The notes beneath the pieces were generated by a model. That model had not been told where the DNA came from. It saw only the letters and a program-made list of their open reading frames with translations, and searched no databases. From positions 1 through 57,545 of the forward strand of contig JACQZI010000030.1 of assembly GCA_016207825.1 (NCBI GenBank): 57,545 bases of DNA. Reading direction: 5' to 3'. The translations under genes and the position numbers were made by a program. This DNA comes from Planctomycetota bacterium (lineage in GTDB: Bacteria > Planctomycetota > MHYJ01 > JACQXL01 > JACQZI01). Of this stretch, positions 7,985-57,545 are shown one piece after another (positions within the stretch are counted from its first letter, which is position 1; each line of letters opens with the position of its first letter).

Positions 7985-9454
7985 ATGGAATTATATAAGC
8001 ATACCGCCCTGGAAATAAGGGACATGGTTTTAGACAAAAAAGTTTCCTCCACAGACGTGGTTAAAGACACTTTTAAGCGCATTGATTCGGTTGAGCCGAA
8101 AATCAAGGCGTATCTCACCCTCTGCAAGGAAACCGCTTTAGCCCAGGCTGGGAAAATAGATGAGAAAATACGTAAAGGCGAAAAAATCGGACAGCTTGCC
8201 GGCATCCCGATAGCCATCAAAGATAATATCTCTACGCAAGGAATAAAAACCACCTGCGCATCCAAAATACTTAGCAATTTCACCCCGCCTTATGATGCCT
8301 ATGTAATAAAGCGCATCAAGGAAGAAGATGGCATTATCATAGGGAAAACCAATCTGGATGAATTCGCCATGGGTTCTTCCTGCGAGAATTCCGCTTTCGG
8401 CCCGACCCATAACCCGCACGATTTATCCAGGGTTCCGGGTGGTTCAAGCGGCGGCTCGGCAGCGGCAATTGCTTCTGATATGGCTTTTATTTCTCTGGGT
8501 TCGGATACGGGCGGCTCTATCAGACAACCGGCGGCTTTATGCGGAGTGGTTGGACTGAAGCCAACTTATGGCGCTGTTTCCAGATACGGATTGGTTGCCT
8601 TTGCGTCTTCGCTTGACCAAATCGGACCGATAACCAAGGATGTCCGTGATGCGGCTTTGATGATGAACGTCATTGCCGGATACGACCCGCAGGATTCGAC
8701 ATCGGTAAAAGAGTTCAATAGTTCAAAAGTTGAATGGTTCAAAAGGCTGGAAGATGGAGTAAAGGGATTAAAAATCGGCATACCAAAGGAATACTTCGCA
8801 GAAGGAATAGATAAAGATATCAGTAAATCAGTATATCAGAGTATCGGATTATTAGAGAAATTGGGAGCAAAAACCATAGATATTTCGTTACCGCATACCG
8901 AATACGGAATCGCCACTTATTATATCATTGCGCCGTCTGAGGCAAGCTCTAACCTAGCTCGTTATGATGGAGTGCATTATGGATACCGAACCACAGATTA
9001 CACAGATTTAATGTCTATGTATCATAAGAGCCGGAGCGAAGGATTCGGCCCCGAAGTAAAACGCCGGATTATGCTCGGCACATTTGCGCTTTCCAGCGGA
9101 TATTACGATGCATATTATCTCCGTGCTTTAAAAGTAAGGCGTTTAATCAAGAACGATTTCGATGAGGCATTTAAGAAAGCGGATGTCATCCTCTCCCCCA
9201 CCTCGCCGATACCGGCTTTTAAGATGGGAGAAAAACTGGATGACCCCTTGCAGATGTATTTATGCGATGTGATGACCGTCTCCGCAAACCTGGCAGGAAT
9301 CCCGGGTATTTCCATCCCATCAGGCTTTACTAAAAGCAAGCTTCCGGTTGGCTTGCAGATATTGGGAAAACCATTTGAAGAAGAGACAATATTACGAGTC
9401 GCCAGAACGTTTGAACGGGAAACCGATTATCATAAAACAAAACCAGTTATTTAA
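7985..9454 (+). CDS. gatA: Asp-tRNA(Asn)/Glu-tRNA(Gln) amidotransferase subunit A
   Basis: 489 residues, full length. GatA is the amidase-signature subunit that frees ammonia from glutamine. Seen: the catalytic Lys in GIPIAIKDN, the amidase signature [13 protein letters not shown] with the cis-Ser, and the nucleophile Ser in [11 protein letters not shown]-terminal [17 protein letters not shown] is typical. Between DSTSV and LEDGVKGLK it has about nine extra residues (NSSKVEWF region, around 8711-8743) that look like a short repetitive insertion. Only three bases lie between its stop and gatB. Confidence 0.97.
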
Positions 9455-23350: not shown

Positions 23351-23543
23351 CAAAGTGATTCTCTTAGGACATTAATGTGGTGAGTATCAATTAATGTACA
23401 ATTCGGGGAAAATAGCCTGACCAATAGAGGGGATAGGGGTTTTGAAACGGGGGTAGGTAGGGTATATACCCCCCGCTTAATTGCTTATATTCATTTTAAC
23501 CCCTTAATTCTGCGTTATATTGAGTTTGGCGGGTTCTACAAGC
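23351..23543. other. Intergenic spacer before the first 21-bp array
   Basis: No gene seen. It contains GGGGGTAGGTAGGGTATATACCCCCC (split here as GGGGGTAGGTAGGG and TATATACCCCCC) at about 23451-23477, a C/G-run texture like the window start and the lead-in of the 22-bp array at 56976. Confidence 0.4.
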
Positions 23544-23774
23544 TTTCTATTCTCAGGGCTAAAACTTTCCGACCCAGGGATAACTTTTTCCGCCTTGGGG
23601 ACAAACCTTTCATCCCTTGGGCTGAACCATTCATCCTTTGGGATAAACCATCTATCCCGCGGGCTGAACCATTCATCCTTTGGGATAAACCATCTGTCCC
23701 ACGGGCTGAACCATTCAGCCTTAGGGATGAATCATTCATCCCGCGGTATAAATCATTCAGGGAAATTCGGACAC
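23544..23774. repeat. Tandem array, 11 units of exactly 21 bp
   Basis: Eleven consecutive 21-bp units without a single indel (23544, 23565, 23586 ... 23754). Consensus in two parts: C-A-T-T-C-ATCCC then NNGGGATAAAC. Each unit has a dyad (ATCC...GGGAT) at its centre. Odd and even units alternate GGGATAAAC and GGGCTGAAC. Because 21 is divisible by 3 and units lack stops, frames stay open on both strands, but there is no SD and no family resemblance, so I treat it as non-coding. It lies between two convergent genes. Confidence 0.9.
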
Positions 23775-23902
23775 TTCCTGTTTTTCTTTGAGTAATATAC
23801 CCCTCCTACGGAGGATTATAACTTTTCGCTTAGTTACTGACAAGGGAAAAATCTTACTCTGTTTAATCGGTGTAATCCTGTTGTCTGTTAATTGGAATGT
23901 AT

Positions 23903-28844: not shown

Positions 28845-28872
28845 TTGACCTGTAATGAAAGGATGGTATACT
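28845..28872 (+). promoter_or_regulatory. Promoter of the 28882 gene, predicted leaderless
   Basis: TTGACC (28845-28850), 16-bp spacer, TATACT (28867-28872), then 9 nt to a GTG at 28882. It overlaps the upstream in-frame ATG (28855), which therefore could not be on the transcript. Confidence 0.65.
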
Positions 28873-28881
28873 TATCTTATC

Positions 28882-29367
28882 GTGAAAAAAGTCATTATTG
28901 TATCAGGCATCATTATAGCAGCATTATTTGTGTTTATCCTCGTCACCCTTATTATAAATCCATGGTCACATATAGCTTGTACAGAACATTACTTTGATAT
29001 CAATAGCGGGAAAATCAAGATAGAGAATTATTTTTTATACATAAAAACAAAGGAACAAATCTGCGACACAAAATTCTCCTTGTTATATAAGAATTTTTAT
29101 CCAGAGGCAAAAGAGCCTAAGTGGCACGCAACAAATACAACTTCGCCAATGATTAACTATGGGCCTCACTATGCTTTTCATGGGGCAGCCGCTTGGGCAG
29201 CATTGTTAATTCATTACTTTGAAAACAAAAAGGATATATATGAAAACAGGAAAAAAGAAGTAGTAAAAGGATTTATAGACGCTTTGAATTCAGAGAATAG
29301 TGATAATAAAGCTTACGAATATGTGAAAAAAGTAATGGAGGAAACCTCAAGCCCAGATGTGAAATAA
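28882..29367 (+). CDS. Hypothetical single-pass membrane protein
   Basis: About 161 residues from a GTG start chosen from the promoter at 28845-28872; an ATG at 28855 would add nine residues. N-terminal anchor (VIIVSGIIIAALFVFILVTLII), then a soluble domain with little family signal (NYGPHYAFHGAAAWAALLIHYF). It is more A/T-rich than its neighbours. It ends before a terminator-like hairpin (29466-29504) and the second 21-bp array. Function unknown. Confidence 0.55.
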   Translation: MKKVIIVSGIIIAALFVFILVTLIINPWSHIACTEHYFDINSGKIKIENYFLYIKTKEQICDTKFSLLYKNFYPEAKEPKWHATNTTSPMINYGPHYAFHGAAAWAALLIHYFENKKDIYENRKKEVVKGFIDALNSENSDNKAYEYVKKVMEETSSPDVK

Positions 29368-29465
29368 AGAAGAGGCGCCCAAACTTAACGCCCTCCCACC
29401 TGTTAGCACCTTCAATGACCCTATTAGCTCAAAAGACCCAATTACCCATAGGCAAGGGTTATTGC

Positions 29466-29504
29466 CCCCTCCGACCTACCTCGCCGGTAGGCGGGAGGGG
29501 TTTT
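29466..29504 (+). terminator. Terminator-like hairpin
   Basis: CCCCTCC-GA-CCTACC pairs with GGTAGG-C-GGGAGGGG across a 5-nt loop, followed by TTTT. It stands 100 bp after the stop of the gene at 28882-29367 and just before the second 21-bp array. Confidence 0.6.
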
Positions 29505-29519
29505 AAGCACCTTTTAGGT

Positions 29520-29813
29520 GGTTTTAACCCATGTCGGAACCGTTCAGCGCATGCGATAACTCATTCAGCTCATGCGATATACCGTTCAGCGCATGCGATA
29601 ACCCGTTCAGCGCATGCGATAACCCAATCAGCGCATGCGATATACCGTTCAGCGCATGCGATGAAACATTCCAAGCATGCTACGAAACATTCATCCATTG
29701 GAATAACTCATTCATCCCTGGGTCTAAGCCCTTGCGACCTTGGTCGGAAACCTTCAGCCCGTGGATTGAGCCCTTCGCTCCCCAGTATAAACCGTTCGTT
29801 CCTCCCCGCGTGG
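29520..29813. repeat. Tandem array, about 12-14 units of exactly 21 bp
   Basis: Units begin at 29541, 29562, 29583 and so on through 29792 with no indel; weaker units extend to 29520 and 29813. The first seven share C-R-TTCAGC-GCATGC-GATA with a central GCATGC palindrome; later units drift to CCATTGG, CCCTGGG and similar but keep a dyad core and period. The 5' part of each unit (CATTCA) matches the array at 23544-23774. Open frames here are a by-product of the 21-bp period. It lies between convergent genes. Confidence 0.9.
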
Positions 29814-56851: not shown

Positions 56852-56975
56852 AAACTAAATCAAAGCACGGAAAACGAATTAAATGCGGTTTAAAACGTAT
56901 ATATTAATTCGCAAATCAATTAAATGCGGTTTTAGGCTGAGGGGGGTACTGCCCCCCACCCCCTAATTACATCCC

Positions 56976-57239
56976 CCCGGCCTATAAGATACTTCTCCCC
57001 GGTCCATAATACTTATCTCCCCGGTCTACAATATACCTGCCCCCGGACGACAATATACCTCTCCCCGGTCCATAATATACCTGCCCCCGGTCTATAATAC
57101 TTATCTCCCCCGTCTATAGTATACATGCCCCCGGCCTACAAGATAGCTCTCCCCCGTCCATAATACTTATCTCCCCGGTCTGTGATATACTTCTCCCCGG
57201 TCGACAGTATCCCTCTCCCTGGTCTATAATATACCTGGG
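56976..57239. repeat. Tandem array, 12 units of exactly 22 bp
   Basis: Twelve consecutive 22-bp units with no indel (56976, 56998, 57020 ... 57218). Consensus CCCGGTCTATAATA followed by TACCTCTC; the core GGTCTATAATATACC is an imperfect dyad. Units differ at many positions but never in length. The same C-run texture appears at the left edge of the window. No SD or family; non-coding in my view. Confidence 0.9.
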
Positions 57240-57460
57240 CCGGGTGGATAAAGTTAATGGGGGAGGATAAAATTTTACCCCTTGCCTATCGGCAGGGACT
57301 CCTTATTAATTCCGATTTCATCGGGAAACTATGTGGAGCGGGGCAGAGGAGTAAAGAACACAGAGAATGTGAAGGTGATCCTTTATGGAATTCGGTATGG
57401 CGCCCCCCTGCTTTGTTGAATAATTATTTTGAGGAGTGATATAAAAGTTAAAGTAAAACA
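57240..57460. other. Intergenic spacer with repeat remnants
   Basis: A 60-codon frame (57257-57439) has no family and contains phrases of the palindromic repeats (CGGCAGGGACTCC, GGAGCGGGGCAG), so I do not call a gene. Nothing else recognised. Confidence 0.4.
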
Positions 57461-57523
57461 GGGTCATAGACGAAAATACTTGTAGAGAACAGTATTTTTA
57501 TAAGGAGAACCCGTCTATGACCC
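57461..57523 (+). promoter_or_regulatory. Hairpin covering SD and start codon of a gene at the right edge
   Basis: GGGTCATAGACG (57461-57472) is a perfect inverted repeat of CGTCTATGACCC (57512-57523). Inside it AAAATACT (57473-57480) pairs with AGTATTTT (57491-57498). AAGGAG (57502-57507) and the ATG (57517) lie in or next to the structure. It could be a transposon end or a translation-controlling leader. Confidence 0.6.
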
Positions 57524-57545
57524 CTGATTTATTATGTGAATCGGC
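57517..57545 (+). CDS. Partial gene at right edge (start only)
   Basis: ATG with AAGGAG 9 nt upstream, reading MTPDLLCES before the window ends. Too short to assign. Its start is inside the hairpin at 57461-57523. It might be a transposase if the inverted repeat is an IS end. Confidence 0.35.

Follow-up and report, generated by a model that had tools for sequence, protein, structure and literature searches.

The window, i.e. the whole stretch of 57,545 nucleotides analysed here (contig JACQZI010000030.1 of a Planctomycetota bacterium), carries at 29538-29801 a tandem repeat that we call array 2, made of twelve and a half units, each of exactly 21 base pairs (bp). Array 2 belongs, as an orphan, to a class of 21-bp arrays of linker-separated palindromes, with an AACC/GGTT linker in the present case, and its link to this class is strong. 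Other members of the class are usually leader arrays, standing in front of the genes of one uncharacterised protein family. A shared geometry combined with different palindromic cores is the rule in the source genome and in others of the phylum, not a coincidence. An earlier sequence-only reading had pointed to array 2 as a second 21-bp array, with the frame of an array lying at 23538-23759 (array 1) and another core; this description is correct, and the comparison of arrays across the genome and the phylum extends it well beyond these two copies.

Array 2 is built of exact 21-bp units with dyad symmetry

The self-identity of array 2 is 0.69 at lag 21 and falls to 0.25 at lag 22; no segment of block-shuffled control sequence scored near it. 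Aligned to its own period, the array displays 72 substitutions over 263 bases and no insertion or deletion (indel). It consists of two parts:

29538..29663, minus strand: near-identical half of array 2, six 21-bp units with the core CGCATGCG; linker AACC on the plus strand, GGTT on the minus strand
29664..29801, minus strand: diverged half of array 2, 21-bp units with other dyads, e.g. CGACCttGGTCG, and no indel

Units 1-6 are near-identical while units 7-12 have diverged and bear different palindromes at the same place in the unit. This had been read as growth of the array at one end; the gradient is real but one-ended growth is no general rule, the first and last thirds of 27 arrays being indistinguishable (p 0.97). 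On the plus strand the units start with AACC or a variant of it, and the GGTT linker of the minus strand is the one that matches the sense strand of related leader arrays.

The dyad symmetry of the unit exceeds that of its column-permuted versions (p 0.006), and the two arms match each other better within a unit (0.67) than between units (0.52; z 3.3). Of the dyad core proposed earlier, GCATGC and related palindromes, the hexamer itself is present in 6 of the 12 units only; the window has 14 GCATGC sites in all. A role of methylation at GCATGC is not supported. The CATTCA half-unit said to be common to arrays 1 and 2 stands as a match of frame and not as an exact motif: CATTCA occurs in only 3 of the 12 units, CGTTCA and similar hexamers in most others. 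No Rfam match was obtained in the window at gathering scores. Regular repeats with dyads are also a feature of CRISPR (clustered regularly interspaced short palindromic repeats) arrays; in array 2, however, no unique spacers separate constant repeats and it is the whole 21-bp unit that repeats.

The 21-bp arrays precede the genes of one protein family

Several 21-bp arrays stop directly 5' of a gene of the uncharacterised family, just ahead of its ribosome-binding site and start codon. We searched for this family with alignment A1, whose seven rows were all selected beside arrays (a seed bias; counts without the seeds are also given), and found 8 family loci in the source genome and 28 loci in 4 of the 40 genomes searched. 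The upstream test within the order was applied to loci with at least 200 bp upstream, so that 3 of the 28 were dropped (L197, L199 and L205). In the source genome and three relatives a periodic array lies at most 900 bp upstream in 23 of the 25 remaining family loci, and in 16 of 18 once the seven seed genes are removed. The best lag upstream of these 25 loci is always 21 or a multiple of it, never 22. Ordinary genes submitted to the same test gave 3/572 in the source genome (with a family gene among the three), 3/224 in the genus sample, 0/155 in genome G003 and 2/198 in the class and phylum samples.

Alignment A2, which represents the other subfamily, detected the family in 17 of 392 sampled genomes of the phylum. 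For loci outside the order we lowered the threshold to 18 and admitted all lags from 9 to 69, and give counts at 20 as well: among 22 family loci, 10 have an upstream 20-, 21- or 42-bp array at a score of at least 20, and 12 at a score of at least 18. One of these distant arrays has a 20-bp period. No 21-bp array appeared elsewhere in the 22 distant loci among the matches listed (up to three per locus). The link of the 21-bp class to the gene family is strong.

Dyad symmetry accompanies the leader arrays (14 of 23 at p<0.05, pooled Fisher 2e-15), the orphan arrays (4 of 7 at p<0.05, pooled Fisher 5e-7) and the distant family arrays (5 of 12 at p<0.01). As to the proteins, Pfam gave no confident match for either A1 or A2 (one of these checks used 3 sequences); A1 has no match in NCBIfam and weak ones in PDB, and the PHROG matches of A2 are weak, none being confident. 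Plasmids searched with one family protein and viral contigs searched with A1 gave no match.

Promoters were scanned at 22 of the loci (L202 excluded) against 40 shuffles that kept base counts only. In 6 of the 22 a sigma-70-type site before the array is better than all 40 shuffles, and perfect TTGACA/TATAAT boxes are found just upstream of the arrays of L195, L200 and L204. In such loci, with a promoter just upstream, transcription would run through the array and make it a leader. At other family loci the array follows an upstream gene of the same strand. At L168 a stretch (2132-2346) is a near-copy of the leader array and upstream flank of L167 (2213-2553), with another gene after it.

Spacing is kept while sequence drifts

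Counted over 53 arrays (L084 excluded), 7 indels stand against 2446 substitutions, with the reservation that the array finder, which merges ungapped lags over up to 30 bp, somewhat favours indel-free arrays. The ratios are 4/862 for 23 leader arrays, 0/276 for 6 orphans and 3/1308 for 24 arrays of 22-bp period. In non-coding bacterial DNA indels usually amount to several per cent or more of substitutions. Their share in the arrays is below this, and we therefore conclude that spacing is held while the letters drift. The outcome that the sequence-only reading had set against itself, i.e. that only these copies exist and that relatives lose the period at random, is not what we find: the source genome and its relatives hold many further 21-bp arrays, and their period is almost never broken.

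A period of seven codons could reflect translation, into a heptapeptide-repeat protein or an N-terminal extension. Open frames do run across array 2 (115 and 190 amino acids from stop to stop) and across array 1, and those of L167/L187 and L097/L196 are in frame with the gene. But chance alone leaves some frame of a 21-bp repeat open, and in the plus-strand open frames synonymous changes are few relative to non-synonymous ones (4 vs 35 and 6 vs 44 in array 1, 7 vs 38 and 9 vs 37 in array 2). Moreover L082/L195 and L065 have no open frame on either strand and L170/L190 none in sense. We reject the coding explanation, which appears very improbable. The frame does not account for the spacing either, since some 21-bp arrays are frameless, the period of one family array is 20 bp, and the 22-bp arrays, whose unit keeps no reading frame over successive copies, are equally rigid.

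The arrays might also be neutral minisatellites produced by slippage or unequal crossing-over, with a period kept by descent and no function. Size does change by whole units: compared with its near-copy L167/L187 the array of L168 lacks 126 bp (6 units), which indicates gain or loss of entire units. Higher-order repeats of 42, 63, 105 and 110 bp are common among the arrays, and array positions are not conserved. Neutral turnover nevertheless fits poorly with the scarcity of indels, with a dyad symmetry that survives sequence change and with the phylum-wide association with a single gene family, and we consider it quite unlikely as an explanation.

Two classes of periodic arrays populate the genome

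The genome sample comprised the window and 40 further stretches, 808,548 bp in all or 28% of the 2.89-Mb genome, and was scanned for periodic self-matches at lags 8-70, with block-shuffled sequence as control. Of 64 periodic segments 61 have lag 21, 22 or a multiple, vs 0 in the shuffled control. The corresponding figures are 23/26 in the same-genus sample (231,531 bp), 21/40 in mixed other genomes of the order, 1/11 in the class sample (143,666 bp) and 0/6 in the phylum sample (157,292 bp). The idea that only two arrays exist is rejected: within the source genome the CATTCA frame is confined to arrays 1 and 2, but the period class is not.

Strong arrays, nearly all of them intergenic, number 5 with period 21 and 16 with period 22 in the unbiased sample; extrapolated very roughly to the whole genome, this would make about 18 and 57 respectively. 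Dyad symmetry (p<0.05) is found in 7 of 9 period-21 arrays vs 5 of 23 period-22 arrays. We thus find two classes, a 22-bp class mostly without dyad symmetry and a 21-bp class with dyad units. Runs such as GGGGGTA are over-represented at the flanks of the strong arrays (21 arrays pooled, 16 of them 22-bp), and by eye these runs belong to the 22-bp arrays. For the latter we found no marker neighbour family comparable to A1; the largest common neighbour group gathers 8 of 39 arrays (the period is 22 in six and 21 in two), and we draw no conclusion from it.

The scan also brought up other repeats. The window holds a third array at 56949-57250 (period 22, about 13 units, no dyad), which adjoins G-rich runs and is among the 16 strong 22-bp arrays of the genome sample. 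In a genus relative, CRISPR-like repeats with a 66-bp spacing lie near two 22-bp arrays (L177, 457-554). Tandem repeats of 150 bp at L020 (2408-3235) and L023 (9002-9325) look by eye like the coding type of RCC1-like proteins. Finally the last 137 bp of the window (57409-57545) recur without any difference close to the end of contig C16 (L031); the contig may therefore be interrupted there by a repeat, perhaps an insertion element.

The arrays of the window are orphans related to leader arrays

Array 1 shares the linker of array 2, and a promoter-like site lies 55 bp before it:

23538..23759, minus strand: array 1, 21-bp units ATCCC-nn-GGGAT, linker as in array 2, 0 indels
23815..23843, minus strand: promoter-like TTGTCA-17-TATAAT, 11/12 match, on the strand matching leader arrays

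The unit profiles of the two arrays match each other on the same strand (best circular match, z 6.6-7.9). Array 2 also matches four leader arrays, all on the same strand (L207, z 4.7; L208, z 4.6; L206, z 4.0; L212, z 3.8), and array 1 matches L208 (z 7.0), so that the likeness of both to leader arrays is to their sense orientation, on the minus strand of the window. Promoter-like sites in the region of array 1 number 3 vs 1.0 expected; none was found before array 2. No A1 or A2 family gene lies beside either array and we therefore call them orphans. In genome G001 (contig C59, around 8777-9026) an array-like match containing GCATGC is located 108 bp ahead of a short match to the C-terminal end of the A2 family.

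The closest match of array 1 is L292 (z 8.5), an orphan array from another family of the order. L292 (1166-1917) is itself a single intergenic region with three consecutive 21-bp sub-arrays and three different cores. Along with the similarity of L065 to L275 (z 4.2), this match indicates that the same unit sequences turn up again at loci unrelated to each other and in two families. Such recurrence would be expected of mobile satellites, copied between loci by themselves and landing before the gene family by preference. We saw, however, no common ends or target duplications; the longest common flanks of 21-bp arrays look like duplicated upstream and family genes, and in distant loci the arrays are placed upstream only. 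Autonomous spread is improbable in view of these features.

The surroundings of array 2 were as follows:

28855..29367, plus strand: flanking open reading frame, 170 amino acids, no Pfam match
29466..29500 (approximate), strand not assigned: strong hairpin adjoining array 2 (29455-29515 folded as RNA gives z -3.3 on one strand and -4.2 on the other)
29502..29537, strand not assigned: AAGCACCTTTTAGGTGGTTT, similar on inspection to a single unit of L065, the 21-bp array of contig C10
29919..31106, minus strand: flanking gene for a MacB/FtsX-type permease, convergent with the plus-strand open reading frame

Array 2 does lie between convergent genes, as first described. The terminator-like hairpin reported next to it is a strong hairpin with TTTT after it on the plus strand, and is possibly the terminator of the plus-strand open reading frame, but it was not among the entries of a terminator scan of the region. 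ARAGORN called a leucine transfer RNA (tRNA) over this hairpin (29469-29541); this call is probably false and was rejected because Rfam found no tRNA there.

Protein sites or RNA hairpins

Starting from the observed period, dyads, fixed register, gene-family link and resemblance of the window arrays to leader arrays, we infer the following mechanism, to which we give a probability of about 0.45: the arrays would offer a dimeric DNA-binding protein a series of palindromic sites in helical phase, with array 2 as an orphan member of the leader class. In the source genome and its relatives the class occupies the leader of the genes of the multi-copy family, after a promoter or upstream gene and ahead of the start codon. 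Dyads placed every two turns of B-DNA would face one side of the helix, and since the palindromes repeat at this interval the predicted dimers would form a row on one DNA face. Such a protein may coat the array cooperatively and, at gene-family loci, control transcription through the leader. The orphan copies might provide extra binding platforms, as a nucleoprotein patch, a decoy or a 3' boundary of the flanking genes.

The same dyads could act in RNA, the transcribed array folding into successive small hairpins and so adjusting how stable or how well translated the message of the next gene is, and the orphans being 3' untranslated elements or small RNAs. At several family loci the array stands 3' of a promoter and 5' of the start codon, which is consistent with this, as are the covariation of arms within array 2 units and the promoter-like site 55 bp before array 1. 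L209 and L200, rich in G-T and poor in A-C cells (23 vs 2 and 10 vs 0), point the same way. Yet over all non-Watson-Crick dyad cells in sense orientation, 100 G-T vs 81 A-C give no clear bias. Array 2 folds no better than its shuffles (z -1.4 and -1.1) and not into one hairpin per unit, and several cores are almost loopless (CGCATGCG). Because of these three observations RNA hairpins are not favoured. Besides, they would not require a fixed 21-bp period, and Rfam run over the leader arrays returned no match, its sole match being a tRNA elsewhere in L204. An element acting as RNA is thus doubtful. A site array read by a dimeric protein or through DNA geometry agrees better with the observations than RNA hairpins do. 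The sites may be address-like, as the sequence-only reading suggested, and the recurring units fit trans-acting readers, although no reader was identified.

Several observations nevertheless weigh against phased protein sites. No reader protein was found for the arrays. No significant dyad was detected in 9 of 23 leader arrays, and none in the orphan L084 (p 0.90). The family genes L193 and L213 have no array despite enough upstream sequence, and about half of the family genes outside the order have none. The turnover seen between L168 and L167 implies that slippage or unequal exchange is active. Neither the window nor contig C30 has a detectable family gene or remnant, so the leader model leaves the role of orphans unexplained. 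Lastly, in the order genomes searched no 21- or 22-bp array is present at the orthologs of the aspartyl-tRNA synthetase or lipoate-synthase-like genes, and the positions of the window arrays are therefore lineage-specific.

A bolder version of the protein-site mechanism, which we consider rather unlikely, is a phylum-wide ruler: selection would keep helical spacing and palindrome while sequence drifts, each array would be a private address in coevolution with a dedicated reader, perhaps the paralog whose gene follows the array, and orphans would extend the network to other chromosomal sites.

Relation to known repeats and significance

Iterons and plasmid centromere-like arrays are directly repeated protein sites about two helical turns apart, with one array and one sequence per replicon. 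The arrays described here resemble them in the spacing of repeated sites but are many, have private sequences and are made of palindromic 21-bp units. REP (repetitive extragenic palindromic) elements have a sequence common genome-wide and do not form strict tandem arrays. They and other palindromic extragenic repeats are, like the present arrays, short intergenic palindromes, whereas each of our arrays has a sequence of its own and exactly spaced units.

A survey of prokaryotic satellites by Subirana and Messeguer (2019; PMC6749651) covers tandem repeats of 10-200 nucleotides, about 40% of which are unrelated in sequence to any other. The minisatellites, or variable-number tandem repeats, considered there are like our arrays in being tandem repeats whose copy number changes in whole units; in the parts of that survey consulted, no class is described whose period is fixed at 21 or 22 bp, whose units are dyads or which is tied to a gene family. 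In a literature search made mostly without subscription papers, and judged by titles and the start of abstracts, we recognised neither such arrays nor the gene family. We call the 21-bp palindrome arrays tandem-repeat arrays of unusual conservation, forming a large class so far undescribed.

With this class an uncharacterised gene family gains a conserved cis-element whose conserved feature is spacing and not sequence. It explains the wealth of 21- and 22-bp arrays in this genome, which sequence searches would leave ungrouped, and it raises a testable question: are helical phase and dyad symmetry enough for a cell to read a repeat array whose letters change?
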